From Gammaproteobacteria bacterium (GTDB taxonomy: Bacteria; Pseudomonadota; Gammaproteobacteria; Pseudomonadales; Halieaceae), in the NCBI GenBank assembly GCA_024742415.1, contig JANSYN010000013.1:1-64000 (forward strand): a DNA stretch of 64,000 nucleotides, read 5' to 3'. The stretch's first letter is position 1; every line of letters begins with the position of its first letter. A program made the position numbers and the translations under genes. The notes below the pieces were generated by a model that ran no database searches, was not told where the DNA came from, and was given only the letters and a program-made list of their open reading frames with translations. This document shows positions 8,327 to 45,994 of this stretch, piece after piece.

Positions 8327-8926
8327 TTATGCCTCGCCGCTGACCTGCGAGAGCATCATATCCACCTCTTGCATCAGTTCATCCAGTTCATCAATTCCCA
8401 GCAACTCGTACTTCAGCGCTTCATCAAAGGGCAGCAGTTGAATCAGGGTATAGGCCACTTGCCACGCCTGATTGTAATCGACCGGCAGGTTCAGGCTTCG
8501 CACATGAGGATGCGCCTCCAGGCCCTGCAGTACCTCAAGCACTGGCTGCCAAACCTCCAGCATACGCGCCGATGGCGGCGGCTCGCGTAACGCAACCTGG
8601 CCAACAATAAGGCCATTGGCACGCGTCTCAATCGACGCAAGGTCAAAGCGCTGAACGCCCTCTATCGTGACCCCCAGCAAACCGTTGGATAGCTGGTCCC
8701 AATCTACGATCTTCGCCGTGCTGCCGTAATCGCCCAGGTGCGGCGCGGCGCTACCACGCTGCGCCACTTCAGCGCCGCGCCGAATCCATACAACACCAAA
8801 CTCAATGCCATCGCGCAGACTGTCCTTGACCAGGTCGAGGTAGCGCGGCTCAAAAATCTGCAGCGGCATGCGCCCGTAGGGCAAAAGTACCGAACCCAAC
8901 GGAAACAGGGGTAATTCAGTCAACAC
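8327..8926 (-). CDS. LON peptidase substrate-binding domain protein
   Basis: 199 residues containing only the N-terminal Lon domain (ELPLFPLGSVLLPYGRMPLQIFEPRYLDLV at residues 3-32). There is no AAA or protease domain, so it is not a Lon protease. Such proteins are common and their role is not established. It is the last gene of a leftward three-gene operon (exporter, cysteine-cluster protein, this gene) and overlaps its upstream neighbour by 11 bases. Confidence 0.85.
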   Translation of the reverse strand: MLTELPLFPLGSVLLPYGRMPLQIFEPRYLDLVKDSLRDGIEFGVVWIRRGAEVAQRGSAAPHLGDYGSTAKIVDWDQLSNGLLGVTIEGVQRFDLASIETRANGLIVGQVALREPPPSARMLEVWQPVLEVLQGLEAHPHVRSLNLPVDYNQAWQVAYTLIQLLPFDEALKYELLGIDELDELMQEVDMMLSQVSGEA

Positions 8927-20879: not shown

Positions 20880-21056
20880 ATGTATATCCACCGAGCACTC
20901 CTGCTGGCCATCGGCATTATTCTGGTTTTCCTGCCCAGCATCGCCCAGTGGCTCACCGACTCGGATACCGCCTGGTATCGACCGTTTCAGCTCTGGTTCC
21001 TGCTGGTGCTGGCGGCCTACTGGAACCAGCGCTCCGGCTTTTCCGATGAGCTATAG
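20880..21056 (+). CDS. cbrX: Small membrane protein CbrX-like, coupled to cbrA
   Basis: 58 residues (MYIHRALLLAIGIILVFLP...) with two hydrophobic segments, about residues 5-20 and 33-46, and a short polar tail. Its last 11 bases overlap the start of cbrA, so cbrA translation is probably coupled to it. P. putida has a small overlapping gene in the same place (cbrX). The match rests on position, size and hydrophobicity. Function beyond coupling is not known. Confidence 0.75.
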   Translation: MYIHRALLLAIGIILVFLPSIAQWLTDSDTAWYRPFQLWFLLVLAAYWNQRSGFSDEL

Positions 21057-24018
21057 CCTGACACAGATCATGGTCTTCGTGATCGCCTACCTCAGCGGGC
21101 TGTTCGCGGTTGCCCACCTTGCCGACAGCGGTGCCATCTCCCGCCGGATCACTCATCACCCTGCTGTTTATGTGCTCTCGCTCGGGGTTTTTGCCGGGGC
21201 CATGGCGACCAATGGCGTGATCGCGCTGGCACAGCAATACGGTTATAACTTCCTGCTGTATTACATGGGTGCCGTGGTGATGTTCGCTGCCGCAGCGCTG
21301 GTGCTCATGCCCCTGTTACGCCTGTGCCGCGTCTATCAACTGGCTTCGCTGGCCGATGTGCTGACGTTCAGGTTTCGCAGCCCCTGGGTGGGAGCGGCTA
21401 TCACCATCGCCATGTGCGTCACCCTGTTGCCGCTGCTGGCGCTGCAAATCCAGGCGGTGGCCGGCACTGTCAATTTGCTCGCTGGCGACAGCACCGTTGT
21501 GACGACCGGACCAGAGCGGCACAACCAGCTCGCCCTGTTCTTCTGCATCATCATCACCGCTTTTTCTATCCTGTTTGGCACGCGCCACCGTTCCTACCAG
21601 GAGCGCAACACCGGCCTGGTGACGGCCATTGCGTTTGAGTCGGTGGTCAAACTCAGTGCACTGTTGATACTCATGTTCGTTGCACTCTACCAGGTCTTTG
21701 GTGGTTTCGGAGGCCTGGAACACTGGCTGACTGACAACCCGCATCTGGGCAGACAACTGCGCGAGAGCGTCGACGGCGATGTCGCGCGCACGCTGTTGCT
21801 GGTGTTTTTTGCCGGTGCCGTGTGTATGCCGCACATCTTTCACATGGCCTTTGCAGAAAATCACGACAGTGCCGAAATGCGCGCTGCGACCTGGGGCCTG
21901 CCACTGTACCTGCTGCTGCTGGCGCTGCCGGTATTGCCGATCGCCTGGGCCTGCCTGAAACTGGGGCATTCGGTGCCGGCAGAATTCAGCAGCCTCGCGC
22001 TGGGCCTGGCACTGGAATCGACCGCCTTGAGCGCCCTGGCGTTTGTGGCCAGTCTGTCGGCGGCAAGTGCCACCATCATCGTTACCACGCTGGCCCTGGC
22101 AAACATGTGCCTTACGCACCTGGTCGTTCCCTTCCGGCTGCCAAAAACAGCCATGAACCAGAGCCTGTACACCCAGTTGCTGTGGGGGCGCAGGATCCTT
22201 ATTCCCGTGCTTATACTGGGCGGCTACAGCTTCTACTCGGCACTGGGTAACGAACAGCAACTGACCGAGCTGGCACTGGTGGCGTTCGCCGGGACGCTGC
22301 ATTTTCTGCCGGGCCTGATCGCTACGCCTTACTGGCCCAAGGCCAACCGCCTGGGTTTATTGGCGGGACTGGCCGGCGGACTGTCGATCTGGTTTATCGC
22401 ATTGCTCATGCCGCTGATCAGCAATTTTCAGGCAGATGCCCTGCACCCGCTCTTTGGCGCGCTGTCGGGCGTCACACAGAACGCCTGGGCGGCGGCAACG
22501 CTGGTCTCCATTTTCGTCAACAGTGGTTTGTTCGTACTGGTATCGCTGGTAACGCGCACGACCAAGAGTGAGCGCGTTGCCGCCGAGATCTGCTCGATGG
22601 ATGCCCGTGCCAGGCCCACCAAACAGTCCCTGGCCGTGGTCAGGGCGGCAGATTTCAGCACCCAGCTGGCACCCGCACTGGGCGCAAAAACGGCCAAATC
22701 GGAAGTTGACCTTGCGCTGGAGGAGCTGCAGTTTTCTGCCGATGAGGATCGACCCTATGCCCTGCGCCGGTTGCGGGCGCGCATCGAGGCGAACCTGTCC
22801 GGGTTACTGGGGCCGGCCGCAGCGAACCGGATCATTGAGTCAGGGCTACCCTTTCAGCCGGGTATCGACGACGACGGCGACGACCTGTACTCCATGGAAC
22901 GGGACATCGACCAGGCTCAACCGAGGTTCACCGGGCTTGCGGCTGATCTCGACGACCTGCGAAGACACCACCGCGAGACGCTCGACAAACTGCCTATCGG
23001 CGCCTGCTCGATCGGTGCCAACGGTGAGTTGCTTATGTGGAATCGCAGTATGGAGCAGATCACGCAGATCGAAGCCGATCGCGTCCTGGGCTCTTTGCTG
23101 GGTTCCATACCCGCGCCCTGGAACCAGATACTGGCGGGCTTCCACGCAGCGGATGAAGACACCGCCCCCAAAACCGAGGTAACCACCAACAGCACCGTGC
23201 GTTGGATAAGCCTGCACAAAGCCGCGATCGAGGAAGGCGGCAAAGGCGACACCATCATACTGGTGGAAGATATCACCGACTACGAGGTGCTCGAATCCGA
23301 ACTGCTGCACAGCGAGCGACTGGCATCCATAGGCAGGCTGGCCGCCGGCGTCGCGCACGAGATAGGCAATCCCGTCACCGGCATCGCATGTCTGGCACAA
23401 AACCTGGAGTACGAGACGGACCCAGGCGAAATTCGCCACATGGCGCAGGACATTCTCAAGCAAACGGCGCGGGTAACGCGCATCGTTGAGTCACTGATGA
23501 ACTTTTCCCACACTGGGTCCAGCGCCGGCGAGGTAGAACTGCTACCGGCCAACCTTGCCGACTGCGTGGACGAAGCTATTCACCTCCTCAGCCTGGATCG
23601 CGACGCGAAGCCGGTGAGTTTCAACAATCACTGCGACCGCGAGCTGCTGGTCAGCGCAGACAGCCAGCGACTGCTGCAGGTGTTCGTCAACCTGCTGGGC
23701 AATGCGCGCGACGCCTGCGACGAGTACGGCGAAATTCACATTCGGGCGCGCGCCGACGCGAATCACATCAACATCGATGTCGAGGACAACGGCTGTGGTA
23801 TCCCCGCCGAACTCCAGCAGCAGGTGTTTGAGCCGTTTTTTACCACCAAGGATCCGGGCGTGGGCACGGGGCTTGGCCTGTCCCTGGTCTACAGCATCAT
23901 GGAAGACATGCAGGGCAAGGTCATGGTTGCCAGCCCGATTCTGGATGGCCCGCAGCCCGGCACACGGGTCAGCCTGCAGTTAGACCGCGCCAGCTACGGC
24001 ACTTCATTTCAAACGTAA
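21046..24018 (+). CDS. cbrA: Sensor histidine kinase CbrA with SSS-type transporter domain
   Basis: 990-residue hybrid of a sodium/solute symporter (SSSF) domain and a histidine kinase. About 13 transmembrane segments lie in residues 5-500. A STAC-like linker (about 520-620) and a PAS domain (about 650-740, [18 protein letters not shown]) come next. The HisKA H-box is [16 protein letters not shown], and the ATPase has N-box [20 protein letters not shown] and GTGLGLSLV. In Pseudomonas CbrA takes up histidine and phosphorylates CbrB in response to the carbon/nitrogen balance. All catalytic motifs are intact. Confidence 0.95.
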
Positions 24019-24098: not shown

Positions 24099-25538
24099 AT
24101 GGATAAAATTCTGGTTGTCGAGGATGAGTCGGTTATCCGTGTGGCGTTACGCCGCTTACTGGAGCGCAATGGCTACGATGTCAGCGAGGCCGGCTCAGTA
24201 CCCGAGGCAGAAAAAAACTTCGAATTGGGCAGCTTTGACCTGGTCATCAGCGATTTGCGCCTGCCAGGAGCGCCCGGCACCGACCTGATCAGAAAAGCCG
24301 GGGACGTTCCCGTGTTGATTATGACCAGCTACGCCAGCCTGCGTTCTGCGGTTGACTCCATGCGCATGGGTGCGGTGGACTATATCGCCAAGCCCTTTGA
24401 TCATGCCGACATGGTCAGCGCCGTGCAGCGCATTATTGCAGAACACCCCACGGCACTGGCTGCGCGTGCGAAAGACGGCCTTGAACCGCCGGCACCAGGC
24501 CCCGACATCAGCGGCATCGTGGGCAACTGCCCCTCCATGCAAACGCTGTTCGATCACATTGAAAAAATCGCCCCGACGGATTCCACCGTGCTGGTTTTGG
24601 GCGAGACCGGTACCGGCAAGGAACTGGTGGCGCGCAGCGTACACCAGCGCAGTATTCGCGCCGGCAAGACGCTGATTTCCGTCAACTGCGCCGCCATTCC
24701 CGAGACGCTGATCGAATCAGAGCTGTTCGGGTATGAAAAAGGTGCCTTTACCGGCGCCAACGCCAGCCGCATGGGCCTGATTGAAGCAGCCGACGGCGGC
24801 ACCCTGTTCCTCGACGAAATTGGTGAACTGCCCATGGAAGCGCAGGCGCGCCTGTTGCGCTTTATCCAGGAAGGAGAGATCCGCCGCATTGGCTCAGTGC
24901 ACTCGCGCAAGGTCGATGTGCGCCTGATTTGCGCGACCCACCGCAACTTGCAGGTGCTCTCTGCCGAGGGTCAGTTCCGCCAGGATCTGTTCTACCGCAT
25001 CAATGTGCTGCGCCTGGACCTGCCACCCCTGCGCGAACGCGGCAAGGATATCCTGCAACTGGCAGAGATCATGCTGGAATCGCAAACCCAGAAGCTGGGC
25101 AAAAGTCCGATGCGGCTGTCTCCGCGCGCGATCCAGGCAATCACGACCTACCAGTGGCCGGGCAACGTGCGCGAACTGGAGCACGCCATCGAACGCGCGG
25201 TGGTGCTCAGTAATGGTGATGAGATCGATAACGAAGCCCTTGGTATCGACCTTGAACTGGTCAATATCAATCGCATTCGCGGTGCGCAGGGTATCAGCAG
25301 CCCCCCAACAGCGCACCACAGTGGTATCGGGCACGAACCCCAGGAGGACCTCTCCCTGGAGGACTACTTCCAGCGCTTTGTCCTGGAGCATCAGGACTCC
25401 ATGAGCGAGACCGAGTTGGCCCAAAAGCTCGGCGTCAGTCGCAAGTGCCTGTGGGAAAGACGCCAACGGCTGGGTATCCCACGCAACAAGAATACGGCAG
25501 TGGCCCGTCGCAAAGGCGCCTCATCACAATCCAAATAG
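24099..25538 (+). CDS. cbrB: NtrC-family response regulator CbrB
   Basis: Sigma-54 enhancer-binding activator, 479 residues. Receiver domain (1-120) with phospho-acceptor D in DLVISDLRLPG. The AAA+ domain has Walker A GETGTGKEL, the sigma-54 contact loop GAFTGA and Walker B GTLFLDEIGEL. The C-terminal helix-turn-helix is ETELAQKLGVSRKCLWERRQRLG. It sits 80 bp after cbrA with an AGAGG ribosome site. A sigma-54 promoter and a CrcZ-like RNA follow directly, the known main target of CbrB. Confidence 0.96.
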   Translation: MDKILVVEDESVIRVALRRLLERNGYDVSEAGSVPEAEKNFELGSFDLVISDLRLPGAPGTDLIRKAGDVPVLIMTSYASLRSAVDSMRMGAVDYIAKPFDHADMVSAVQRIIAEHPTALAARAKDGLEPPAPGPDISGIVGNCPSMQTLFDHIEKIAPTDSTVLVLGETGTGKELVARSVHQRSIRAGKTLISVNCAAIPETLIESELFGYEKGAFTGANASRMGLIEAADGGTLFLDEIGELPMEAQARLLRFIQEGEIRRIGSVHSRKVDVRLICATHRNLQVLSAEGQFRQDLFYRINVLRLDLPPLRERGKDILQLAEIMLESQTQKLGKSPMRLSPRAIQAITTYQWPGNVRELEHAIERAVVLSNGDEIDNEALGIDLELVNINRIRGAQGISSPPTAHHSGIGHEPQEDLSLEDYFQRFVLEHQDSMSETELAQKLGVSRKCLWERRQRLGIPRNKNTAVARRKGASSQSK

Positions 25539-25540
25539 GC

Positions 25541-25610
25541 GTTACCGGCGGGCTGTCACCGCCACAATTACAGAGTATTTAGGTAACACTCAATGTAATA
25601 TCTCTGTAAC
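25541..25610. promoter_or_regulatory. Candidate CbrB binding sites upstream of CrcZ-like RNA
   Basis: Three GTAAC/GTTAC elements (25541-25545, 25583-25587, 25606-25610) lie about 80-150 bp upstream of the predicted sRNA start, the normal range for sigma-54 enhancer sites. That CbrB binds them is inferred from repetition and position only. Confidence 0.5.
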
Positions 25611-25663
25611 CTTTCATCGGCAGTAATATATAACCTATTGTATTTTAATATTTTTTATGGAAT

Positions 25664-25679
25664 TGGCACGCTGCCTGCT
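25664..25679 (+). promoter_or_regulatory. Sigma-54 promoter of CrcZ-like RNA
   Basis: TGGCACGCTGCCTGCT matches the sigma-54 consensus TGGCACG-N4-TTGCW except for one base. The GG (25665-25666) and GC (25677-25678) are exactly 12 bp apart as required. The predicted transcription start is about 25690. It sits directly behind cbrB, which encodes a sigma-54 activator. Confidence 0.85.
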
Positions 25680-25752
25680 TTCCCTTGGGGGCGCAAACAA
25701 TAACAATAATTGCCGCATCAATAAAAATAACAGACTCGCTATGGACCTGGAT

Positions 25753-25782
25753 GGGGAAGTTTACTTCCCCTCAATTTCTTTT
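25753..25782 (+). terminator. First hairpin of CrcZ-like RNA (possible internal terminator)
   Basis: GGGGAAG (25753-25759-type stem arm) pairs with CTTCCCC around TTTA, followed by TCAATTTCTTTT, a T-rich tail. It could end an RNA of about 80 nt containing the first two A-rich clusters, or be partly read through. Confidence 0.55.
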
Positions 25783-25938
25783 GACGCTCGCAACATGCAC
25801 GGCAAAAGAACTGTAGCCTTGCTGATCGCCTGACAGCGTACAGCCACTGTGAGGGAGCAACTGCGCCCCGTGATTTCACGCAGCAATAACAATAACAACG
25901 CCCAGAAATAACAATAACTCCGAAAGTGAGACCTGGAT

Positions 25939-25959
25939 GGGGAAAACACTGTTTTCCCC
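25939..25959 (+). terminator. Second hairpin of CrcZ-like RNA
   Basis: GGGGAAAAC pairs with GTTTTCCCC around ACT, a 9-bp stem preceded by the same CCTGGAT sequence as the first hairpin. The following ATAATTC is only weakly T-rich, so the exact 3' end of the RNA is uncertain. Confidence 0.55.
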
Positions 25960-26050
25960 ATAATTCAGCTCACCCCCTGTCCGGCTCGCCCAGACTCACA
26001 ACTGTGCTAGACTGCGCGCCTGCACATCACCGCGAAAGAGCAACGAACGT

Positions 26051-27337
26051 TTGAATGTCATTCCCCGGGACCAGCACTGCATCTCCCGCCAAAATATCAG
26101 CGACAGCGCACTCAAGGTCATGTCGCGCCTGCGCAAAGAGGGCTTTCAGGCCTACCTGGTAGGCGGCGCCGTCCGCGACCTCCTGCTGGGTGAAAGACCC
26201 AAAGATTTCGATATCGCCACAGACGCCACCCCCGAAGACGTCCGGGAATTGTTCAGGAATTCGCGCATCATCGGTCGACGCTTTCGCATTGTGCATGTGC
26301 GCTTCGGGCGAGAAATCATCGAAGTGACAACATTTCGCGGTCATCATGACAACGACGCAGCGGGTGCATCAGACAGCAACGGATCCAAACAGTCCAATAA
26401 AGGGCTGCTGCTACGCGATAACGTTTTTGGCACACTGGAAGAAGATGCCGTGCGCCGCGATCTGACAGTGAACGCGCTATACTACGATGCCGGCAATTTT
26501 GAAGTGTTTGACCACGTCGGTGGCACCCGGGATCTGGAAAACAGGCTGGTGCGGATCATTGGTGATCCAGAGCAGCGCTACACCGAGGATCCAGTACGGA
26601 TGCTGCGCGTGCTGCGTTTTGCAGCAAAGCTGGATTTCTCCATTGAAGCCGAGACCGCGCGCGGCATCGGCCTGTGCGCACACTTGCTGCTGGAGATTCC
26701 CGCCGCCCGACTGTTTGACGAGTTTATCAAGCTGTTTATGGGCGGCTGCGCCGAAGCCACACTGGACAAGCTGCTCGAACACGATTTGCTGCGCTACCTC
26801 TTCCCCGAAACATGTGCCGAGATGGATGTTGACGAGCTCGCACTGCCCTTGATCCGCGCGGCAATGCGCAGCACCGATCTGCGCATTGGCCAGGACAAAC
26901 CCGTCACTCCGGCGTTTATTCTGGCCGCTCTGTTGTGGCCAGTCGCGCGCGCGCAGGCGGATCAACTGGAGGAGCGCGGCGATGCCCCGATTGCTGCCAT
27001 GCACAGCGCAGCACAGCTGACCATCAGCGAAGCCGCGCAACACCTGTCGATCCCGCGTCGCTTCAGCCAGCCCATGCGCGAGATATGGGAGTACCAGTTG
27101 CGCCTGACCAACAGGCGCGGGCGCAAAGCAGCTGAACTGGTCGAGCAGCGCCGCTTCAGGGCCGCCTACGACTTCCTTCTGCTGCGCGAAGAGGCCGGTG
27201 AATATACCGGGGATCTCGGCGCATGGTGGACAACCTTCCAGGAATTACCCATGGAGCAGCGCCTCAAAGAGGCCGGCGGCGGCGGACGCAGTGGACGCAG
27301 CAAACCGCGACGGCGGCGGGCCAAACCAGAGGCATGA
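26051..27337 (+). CDS. pcnB: Poly(A) polymerase I
   Basis: Adds poly(A) tails to RNA 3' ends and so promotes decay. 428 residues with a TTG start giving MNVIPRDQHCISRQNISD, the family N-terminus. The nucleotidyltransferase head has LVGGAVRDLLLGERPKDFDIAT (catalytic aspartates), then RRDLTVNALYY and a C-terminal RNA-binding arm ending in an arginine-rich tail (GRSKPRRRRAKP). These features, with the genomic place beside folK, fit PcnB rather than a CCA-adding enzyme. The stop overlaps the folK start (ATGA). Confidence 0.95.
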   Translation: MNVIPRDQHCISRQNISDSALKVMSRLRKEGFQAYLVGGAVRDLLLGERPKDFDIATDATPEDVRELFRNSRIIGRRFRIVHVRFGREIIEVTTFRGHHDNDAAGASDSNGSKQSNKGLLLRDNVFGTLEEDAVRRDLTVNALYYDAGNFEVFDHVGGTRDLENRLVRIIGDPEQRYTEDPVRMLRVLRFAAKLDFSIEAETARGIGLCAHLLLEIPAARLFDEFIKLFMGGCAEATLDKLLEHDLLRYLFPETCAEMDVDELALPLIRAAMRSTDLRIGQDKPVTPAFILAALLWPVARAQADQLEERGDAPIAAMHSAAQLTISEAAQHLSIPRRFSQPMREIWEYQLRLTNRRGRKAAELVEQRRFRAAYDFLLLREEAGEYTGDLGAWWTTFQELPMEQRLKEAGGGGRSGRSKPRRRRAKPEA

Positions 27338-45034: not shown

Positions 45035-45882
45035 TAGCAATCTCGCTGTTCCATCGCCCGCCATATTCTTATTGCATCAAGCGTTGGCGCGACGTCGTGC
45101 GTTCGTATGATGGCAGCGCCGCGCTCGGCGGCCAACAGCGCCAGTGCAATGCTGGCCGGCAGGCGCTCGTGCACTGCCCTGCCCAGCAATTTGCCGATCA
45201 TCGACTTGCGCGAAAGACCCACCAGAATGGGCAGGCCAAGAGCCGAAAAATTCGCCAGCTGCGCCAGCAATTGCAAGTTGTGATCTACGGTCTTGCCAAA
45301 GCCAAATCCCGGATCAACCAACAGGCGGCTGCGCTCGATACCTTCGGACTCACAGGCTGCCACACGCGCCGCGAGAAAATCCACAACTTCGTCAACTACG
45401 TGCCCGTAATGTGGACTCTGTTGCATATCACCGGGCTCGCCCTGCATGTGCATCAGGCAGATCGGCAAGCCGCTCGCCGCGGCGGCCTGCACAGCACCGG
45501 CGCGTTGCAGGGCGCGTACGTCGTTGATCATGCCGGCCCCCGCAGCGGCTGCGGCCGACATCAGCCCCGGAGAACTGGTATCTACAGAAACAACGACATC
45601 CAGTTCTGCACTGATGCGCTCAACCAGGGGCAGCACCCGGTCCATTTCCTGCTGCAGCGAAACGGGGGCCGCGCCCGGGCGCGTGGACTCACCGCCGATG
45701 TCGAGTATCGCGGCGCCCTCATCGACCATGCTGCGGGCGCGCGCCAGTGCCGCATCAAGGTCAAGGCGCTGGTTGCGGTAGAGGGTTCCGCCATCGGAAA
45801 AGGAATCGGGCGTTGTGTTAATGACGCCCATTATTGCAGGTGTTGAGAGATCGAGGTGCCGGTCGGCACATTGCACTCTCAT
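45034..45882 (-). CDS. folP: Dihydropteroate synthase
   Basis: Condenses the FolK product with p-aminobenzoate in folate synthesis and is the sulfonamide target. 282 residues. The TIM-barrel motifs are [53 protein letters not shown] and [13 protein letters not shown]. The start [12 protein letters not shown] fits the E. coli N-terminus. This ATG is the last of three evenly spaced ATGs created by an 11-bp repeat. Each of the first two opens a four-codon frame whose TGA overlaps the next ATG. Confidence 0.97.
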
Positions 45883-45994
45883 TGCACTCTCATTGCACTC
45901 TCATGGCGCATTCAATGCAGGTTCAGCGCGTTGCACGACCAATGCCTTGCACTATCAATGACTTGCACTATCAATACGTCGCACTGTGAATGCA
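45871..45994. repeat. Two linked tandem repeats upstream of folP
   Basis: Three exact copies of an 11-bp unit TTGCACTCTCA (45871-45903) span the folP start. After a gap come four degenerate 16-bp units (45931, 45947, 45963, 45979) sharing the TTGCACTATCAAT core. Both arrays share the TTGCACT element. They fill the ftsH-folP gap. On the minus strand the 11-bp units supply repeated GAGAG-like ribosome sites and ATG codons. Confidence 0.9.

Follow-up and report, generated by a model that had tools for sequence, protein, structure and literature searches.

Protein sponges made of RNA and placed under a two-component system are familiar from the RsmZ/CsrB type, which carries GGA motifs for CsrA/RsmA. 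A-rich AAN runs, or CA motifs, bind the distal face of Hfq, and CrcY and CrcX of Pseudomonas, CA-motif RNAs reported to act with CrcZ, come from loci separate from crcZ. CrcZ is described as sequestering Hfq/Crc in Pseudomonas (PMC9272787); CbrB sites have been assigned to crcY, and the CbrB subsites have been given the consensus F = TGTTAC and R = GTAACA (both PMC6296734). In this literature the system has narrow bounds: CbrAB is called exclusive of Pseudomonads (PMC6296734, 2018), and the cbrA-cbrB-crcZ organisation is presented in a 2022 review as described only in Pseudomonas and Azotobacter and as unique to the Pseudomonadaceae (PMC8871633). Among the matches listed in the open-licence literature, covered as titles and excerpts, no title describes a CrcZ outside the Pseudomonadaceae, in agreement with the suggestion of an initial annotation that the RNA considered here was probably undescribed.

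The DNA that we analysed is a stretch of 64,000 nucleotides (the window) from a Halioglobus-like genome of the Halieaceae, in which cbrA, cbrB and pcnB lie on one strand in the order known from Pseudomonas; all coordinates are window positions on the plus strand unless noted otherwise. The cbrA orthologue (21046–24018) is an open reading frame for a sensor kinase of 990 aa with HisKA and HATPase_c domains (Pfam), the cbrB orthologue (24099–25538) encodes a sigma-54 response regulator of 479 aa with Response_reg and Sigma54_activat domains (Pfam) and a GAFTGA motif, and pcnB (26051–27337), the poly(A) polymerase gene that serves as downstream marker, scores 504.6 bits against TIGR01942 (cut-off 305.65). 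Compared with five named Pseudomonas loci, CbrA is 47–49% identical over nearly its full length, CbrB 62–66% and PcnB 53–57%; these orthologues confirm the CrcZ-type place, directly after cbrB and before pcnB, that the annotation had given the RNA. A Pfam search of the window CbrA at E <= 0.001, made without Pseudomonas CbrA as a control, found no SSS/SLC5 transporter domain. Among named records, from which those of the genome itself may be absent, the CbrA product is best matched by an unclassified gammaproteobacterium MAG, by two Halioglobus MAGs and by isolates of Seongchinamella, Pseudohalioglobus, Parahaliea and Pseudohaliea, all of which genera we take, like Halioglobus, to be Halieaceae; two further relatives (L050 and L064) are labelled Halieaceae. 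The marine gammaproteobacterium suspected from the sequence is by these relatives of Halieaceae type.

What, then, lies in the 512 bp between cbrB and pcnB? Judging from the sequence and its conservation, we consider it very probable that this interval encodes an Hfq(/Crc) sponge driven by CbrB and sigma-54, a compact variant of CrcZ. Reading on from the cbrB stop codon, one meets CGTTAC, GTAACA, GTAACC, a sigma-54 promoter and two modules. CGTTAC (25540–25545, with GTTAC from 25541) is a putative CbrB subsite F with one mismatch to the consensus, and GTAACA (25583–25588) is a putative subsite R that matches exactly; in the gaps of the same genus both are kept throughout, the former as invariant CGTTACC and the latter as GTAAC (17/17 each). 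An extra GTAAC site (GTAACC, 25606–25611) is not kept in the genus alignment, and no counterpart of the middle GTAAC subsite of Pseudomonas, there called R1, was seen in the window.

The promoter (TGGCACGCTGCCTGCT, 25664–25679) has the exact GG-N10-GC spacing claimed for it and matches 10 of 11 positions of the sigma-54 consensus; its TGGCA and TGC are invariant in the genus, it stands upstream of the AAN runs in 17/17 gaps, and the RNA would be expected to start near 25690. Its outer geometry is kept relative to Pseudomonas, since the distances between sites agree: the last GTAAC is followed by the sigma-54 site after 81–82 bp in the five named Pseudomonas loci and after 81 bp in the window (from GTAACA at 25583), and GTTAC precedes the last GTAAC by 41 bp in four of those five loci (31 in L117) and GTAACA by 42 bp in the window. 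Taken alone, the pattern is common; with at most one mismatch it occurs 4 times in the 64 kb against 4.4 expected, i.e. at chance level, which is what one would see if the gap were a chance A-rich spacer bearing a chance sigma-54 match. What is unusual is the place of this promoter and its company.

Part of that company is a set of four AAN runs: CA motif 1 (AACAATAACAATAA, 25696–25709), CA motif 2 (AATAAAAATAA, 25720–25730), CA motif 3 (AATAACAATAACAA, 25885–25898) and CA motif 4 (AATAACAATAA, 25907–25917). All four A-rich clusters of the initial annotation are thus located, and they supply the several AANAANAA (CA) motifs that mark an RNA of CrcZ type. The pattern AAYAAYAAYAA has five matches in the 64 kb where 0.15 would be expected, and all five fall in this gap, in three of its four runs. 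Sixteen gaps of the genus carry four runs in the 500 nt after the promoter and one carries three; the loss of the clusters in close relatives, named beforehand as one of the findings that would speak against the RNA, is therefore not seen, with at least three runs in 17/17 gaps, the window's own included.

How far does the arrangement extend beyond the genus? At E <= 1e-100, 113 of the 120 genomes searched in the family and 125 of the 145 in the order have cbrB, and we extracted the sequence downstream of the gene from 73 and 109 of these, respectively (176 genomes, six being shared). A gap without a pcnB match was read over a maximum of 1300 nt, and if the end of cbrB could not be located, reading began 60 nt into the extracted sequence. 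A gap of 200 nt or more was counted as positive when a promoter matching at least 9/11 positions was followed by at least two AAN runs within 500 nt, and 153 of 173 qualified, compared with 0.35% of dinucleotide shuffles; the other 20 are negative by these thresholds. Of the 153 positive gaps, 151 carry at least two GTTAC/GTAAC sites in the 180 nt upstream of the promoter (shuffles, 5.5–12%). Because shuffles ignore the kinship of genomes, the more honest number is the count of families, of which 33 of the 40 examined include at least one positive gap. There was none in f8, f10, f18, f41 or f42, the single gap of f31 has three runs and a promoter of 8/11, and the gap of f27 is ended by the contig end; in f19, f24 and f44 no cbrB match was found among the sampled genomes. 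This conservation in place over 33 families, together with the shuffle controls, contradicts the chance spacer, to which we give almost no credence.

Positive gaps make up 71 of 73 in the Halieaceae, the two misses being L174, which is cut by a contig end, and L183, in which the module model described below still finds a match, and 74 of 80 among the named loci, which include Spongiibacter, Zhongshania, Oceanicoccus, Bacterioplanes, Marinimicrobium and Bermanella. Of the named misses, L070 ends inside cbrB, L083 and L104 may be false negatives, since their scripted cbrB end lies about 195 nt beyond that of many other Pseudomonas loci, and L099, L108 and L112 have no promoter of at least 9/11. 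Outside the order the picture is different: from a draw of 140 genomes of the class, 18 had a cbrB match at the same E-value limit, 16 of them outside the order, and 0/16 had a promoter with two runs within 500 nt, nor was there a pcnB match in the stretches examined for these 16; one same-order genome in that draw (G057) likewise showed neither a pcnB match nor promoter and runs. The arrangement therefore looks particular to the order, within which it reaches far wider than the Pseudomonadaceae. The description of the RNA as lying outside classic Pseudomonas holds for its Halieaceae host, but the locus is widespread in the order and no isolated case.

The second part of the company, absent from the list of features first drawn up, is a tandem repeat: the RNA is built of two modules of about 90 nt, each with two runs followed by GACCTGGATGGGG and a hairpin. 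We made a covariance model of the module, also named R1, from 14 sequences of equal hairpin length, because MAFFT mis-set the 3′ arm when hairpin lengths were mixed; the remaining module sequences were aligned by the model. Module 1 (25697–25783; 92.2 bits, E 4.5e-16) matches by construction, as it is among the 14, whereas module 2 (25883–25972; 48.2 bits, E 2.1e-7) was found although only first-module or single-module sequences had gone into the model; all R1 E-values are rough. The stretch 25690–25975 folds better than its own shuffles (z −3.98).

In the genus, 17 of 18 genomes, its own included, have cbrB at E <= 1e-100, and the same 17 have two R1 matches each at E <= 0.1; the exception, G010, has neither a cbrB match nor a module match. 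The alignment of these 17 gaps keeps CGTTACC, GTAAC, TGGCA...TGC, the AATAAnAATAA cores, the CTGG and GGG-hairpins of both modules and a TG.TA block ahead of pcnB, and varies in the stretch between the modules. Over 73 Halieaceae stretches, R1 gave 124 matches at E <= 0.01, two in 52 stretches and one in 20, with no match in the truncated L174. A first look at the window's own genome turned up 767 candidates, and among the 150 scored R1 reported no third copy of the module.

Hairpin 1 (25753–25770) has 7 bp, a 4-nt loop and the tail TCAATTTCTT, and is terminator-like; hairpin 2 (25937–25961) is a perfect inverted repeat with 12-nt arms and the predicted 3′ end of a long RNA. Covariation supports the hairpin as an RNA structure: over 111 distinct rows, in an alignment that is fitted to the model and includes the 14 rows that built it, 99.5% of cells are paired and 5 of 7 pairs change on both sides, and none of 500 shuffles reached any of five measures. 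When the alignment was slid, at most one pair changed on both sides, and a slide of one column still left 98.2% of cells paired.

The two hairpins raise the question of how many products the gap yields. Most transcripts might end at hairpin 1, giving a mini-sponge of about 94 nt with two runs, and the rest read through to about 280 nt and four runs, in which case the number of Hfq sites per transcript would be set by termination. In keeping with such a pair of products, no terminator-like site but hairpin 1 was called in 25500–26100, and gaps with one copy of the conserved element described below are found in families f4, f11, f13 and f23 and, within the Halieaceae, in g99. Furthermore, each module has its own sigma-54 promoter in f45 and f29, from which one module seems able to stand alone. 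A clear second-module site (9–10/11) is present in four f45 gaps, the f29 gap and L054 (Oceanicoccus), with 9/11 in L049, L144, L147 and L150 and 8/11 in L152. Most two-module Halieaceae gaps, however, have no such site (none or 4–7/11 in the remaining two-copy gaps of the Halieaceae and named loci), and a second promoter for module 2 of the window was considered and rejected at 5/11. The U tracts after both hairpins are also weak, averaging 5.2 and 4.5 T per 10 nt, and shuffled sequence yields about as many terminator-like sites (0.9) as the single one called here. We regard two products as possible, if somewhat short of an even chance. A conserved hairpin just before module 2 was likewise rejected: some relatives fold strongly there, but the window has z −0.8 and the mean over 52 stretches, a set that includes L054 with its own promoter and a few stretches shortened by hairpin 1, is −1.25 against mononucleotide shuffles, with 37% below −1.5.

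The nine bases before the hairpin, GAYCUGGRU, are unpaired in the R1 model and yet strongly conserved. They read GACCUGGAU in module 1 (25744–25752) and again GACCUGGAU in module 2 (25930–25938), there inside an exact second copy of a 15-mer, and none of the 17 genus gaps, which were picked independently of the element, departs from their CTGG in either module. The element is also kept in 55 module sequences from 35 picked loci (57 were extracted and two poor second copies, from L019 and L167, dropped), a conservation that is partly selection, since these modules were themselves located by the element with at most 4/16 mismatches. In a three-mismatch scan it appeared in the gaps of f1, f4, f11, f13, f23, f29, f31 and f45 and in part of those of f30 (one of two) and f9 (one of five); the remaining 30 families, among them f21 (Pseudomonas-type, five gaps), lack it throughout. 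In the Halieaceae, L048 (Pseudohalioglobus sediminis) and L047 (Seongchinamella sediminis) have it twice. Could the RNA then be a base-pairing sRNA with GAYCUGGRU as its seed, in which the AAN runs merely load Hfq? The invariance of an unpaired CUGG would suit a seed, as would the finding that the 15-mer pattern GAYCTGGRTGGGGRA occurs in its own genome at these two places only. But the five f21 gaps share promoter and runs and do without the element, and the runs are themselves conserved; a base-pairing sRNA thus seems improbable to us beside a sponge.

A further question is whether the gap is transcribed for its own sake or as the 5′ leader of pcnB, with the AAN runs as Hfq sites that control pcnB translation. 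The leader has in its favour that pcnB lies on the same strand, at most 90 nt past hairpin 2. The first runs, however, are separated from pcnB by two hairpins and the last run by one, and from this last run to the start of pcnB it is more than 130 nt; the length of the gap, moreover, differs widely among genomes. An extended −10-like sequence (TGTGCTAGACT, 26003–26013), whose TG.TA block is kept in the 17 genus gaps, suggests that pcnB likely has a separate promoter of its own. We consider a pcnB leader very improbable, and continue with the sponge.

How closely does this sponge resemble CrcZ? At the gathering cut-off, Rfam reports only two tRNAs in the window. CrcZ (RF01675) is the only Rfam family at E <= 1 in the gap (E 2.9e-4), with 23.6 bits where the gathering threshold is 95 and with model positions 278–377 alone. 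Over 37 genomes, 26 have an RF01675 row at E <= 1, and one (G024, of family f2, 110.8 bits) is above the cut-off; f2 differs from f21, whose gap nearly equals that of the named P. nitroreducens. Sub-threshold rows were not used as sole evidence, as they also occur at E <= 1 in 6 of 14 control genomes. The RNA of the Halieaceae shares with CrcZ of Pseudomonas and Azotobacter its place between cbrB and pcnB, the GTTAC/GTAAC sites, a sigma-54 promoter 81–82 bp past R, several runs and an alignable 3′ part (two runs, then a GGGG hairpin); conversely, R1 weakly finds the 3′ end in both f21 gaps searched (E 0.006 and 0.015). It differs in an expected length of about 94–280 nt, compared with 398 model positions, in its usual build of two tandem modules and in the GAYCUGGRUGGGG element, which was not found in the Pseudomonas gaps. 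In other words, the RNA is the positional counterpart of CrcZ and stands outside RF01675 by the family's own cut-off; the label CrcZ-like holds for place, promoter, activator sites and runs, but not at the Rfam threshold or for the two-module anatomy, which is its own. With CrcY and CrcX the repeated CA motifs are in common, but in the Halieaceae the repeat is inside one interval, and in f45 and f29 two promoter-run units occupy the crcZ place. The RsmZ/CsrB-type RNAs follow the same logic, in which repeated binding motifs titrate an RNA-binding protein under two-component control, with GGA motifs and CsrA/RsmA where the Halieaceae RNA would use AAN runs and Hfq.

The initial annotation had asked for crc and hfq to be sought in the genome, and both are encoded there, as is rpoN; crc lies outside the window. 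The Hfq core is near-identical to PDB 1u1s, which we take to be Hfq of P. aeruginosa. The Crc orthologue is a 254-aa ExoIII-like protein between pyrE and rph, with Catabolite repression control protein as its best PDB match (221.6 bits; the next, an ExoIII entry, has 213.4); for XthA of the same genome the best matches are ExoIII entries (321.6, against 275 for Crc). Because bit scores are ambiguous, the Pseudomonas-type Crc proteins scoring much like XthA, we judged Crc by its neighbours, its active-site residues and a tree of 64 loci. The ExoIII active site is lost in this Crc, which keeps one of six residues (XthA keeps 6/6), and two f21 Crc proteins keep 2/6. Midpoint rooting of the tree sets ten XthA-like rows apart as one supported group (100/99). 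The genome's own Crc, the f21 Crc proteins and all other rows fall outside this group; the genome's own Crc and those of f21 are not nearest kin.

Crc is not equally recognisable everywhere. In nine of the 64 loci, from f22, f25, f28, f32, f35, f39 and f43, the best Crc match keeps 6/6 residues and thus looks like plain ExoIII; all seven families include positive gaps, in the same genome for G044, G047, G050, G054, G114 and G065. A positive gap is found with no Crc match at E <= 1e-20 in G055 (f33) and the f28 genomes G083, G111 and G135. We treat the absence of Crc as a lead and not a result, since only the best match per genome was taken and a second, weak match exists in some f43 genomes. 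As a separate observation, the best Crc match is an intact ExoIII at L342, L343, L345 and L346 (f22, f25, f28 and f32), and the gaps of the same genomes (L263, L227, L220 and L240) have promoter and runs; these genomes are possible Hfq-only systems.

By homology with Pseudomonas, the locus might work as follows. On a poor carbon source, CbrA/CbrB would activate the sigma-54 RNA polymerase at 25664–25679 by way of the GTTAC/GTAAC sites, and an RNA would be made from about 25690, about 94 nt long if it stops at hairpin 1 and about 280 nt if it reaches hairpin 2. Together with Crc, Hfq would attach by its distal face to the four AAN runs and so be drawn off mRNAs that carry similar runs close to their start codons, which would relieve catabolite repression. 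A bolder combination joins to this a tandem of two self-contained mini-sponges, with partial termination at hairpin 1 tuning the Hfq sites per transcript, a second function of GAYCUGGRU (as base-pairing seed or protein docking site) that has no counterpart in Pseudomonas CrcZ, and a CbrAB-sponge locus ancestral to the order that works in some families without a recognisable Crc; as a whole we find this combination doubtful. With this locus in 33 of 40 families, catabolite control by an Hfq sponge becomes a candidate rule that would hold for a large set of marine gammaproteobacteria, several of the named genera being marine. Nature also offers the variation with which to test the model: promoter units number one to three, the runs counted over 500 nt range from 2 to 12, and Crc is clear in some genomes and not in others.

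A few further observations deserve mention. Tandem units follow cbrB in the f38 loci L212, L219, L223 and L230, in L115 (BD1-7 clade) and in L119 (Bermanella); there are two or three of them, each a sigma-54 site of at least 8/11 followed by a CA run. Run-rich stretches are found in L220 (21 CA runs, part of which may fall beyond the gap, as no pcnB was found there), L032 (13) and L036 (12), which suggests that sponge capacity varies several-fold between lineages. Elsewhere in the window, ARAGORN calls a tRNA-Ser(tga) on the minus strand (8482–8571) that is absent from the Rfam gathering-level list, and an overlapping 11-bp tandem repeat, TTGCACTCTCA, lies at 45871–45897.
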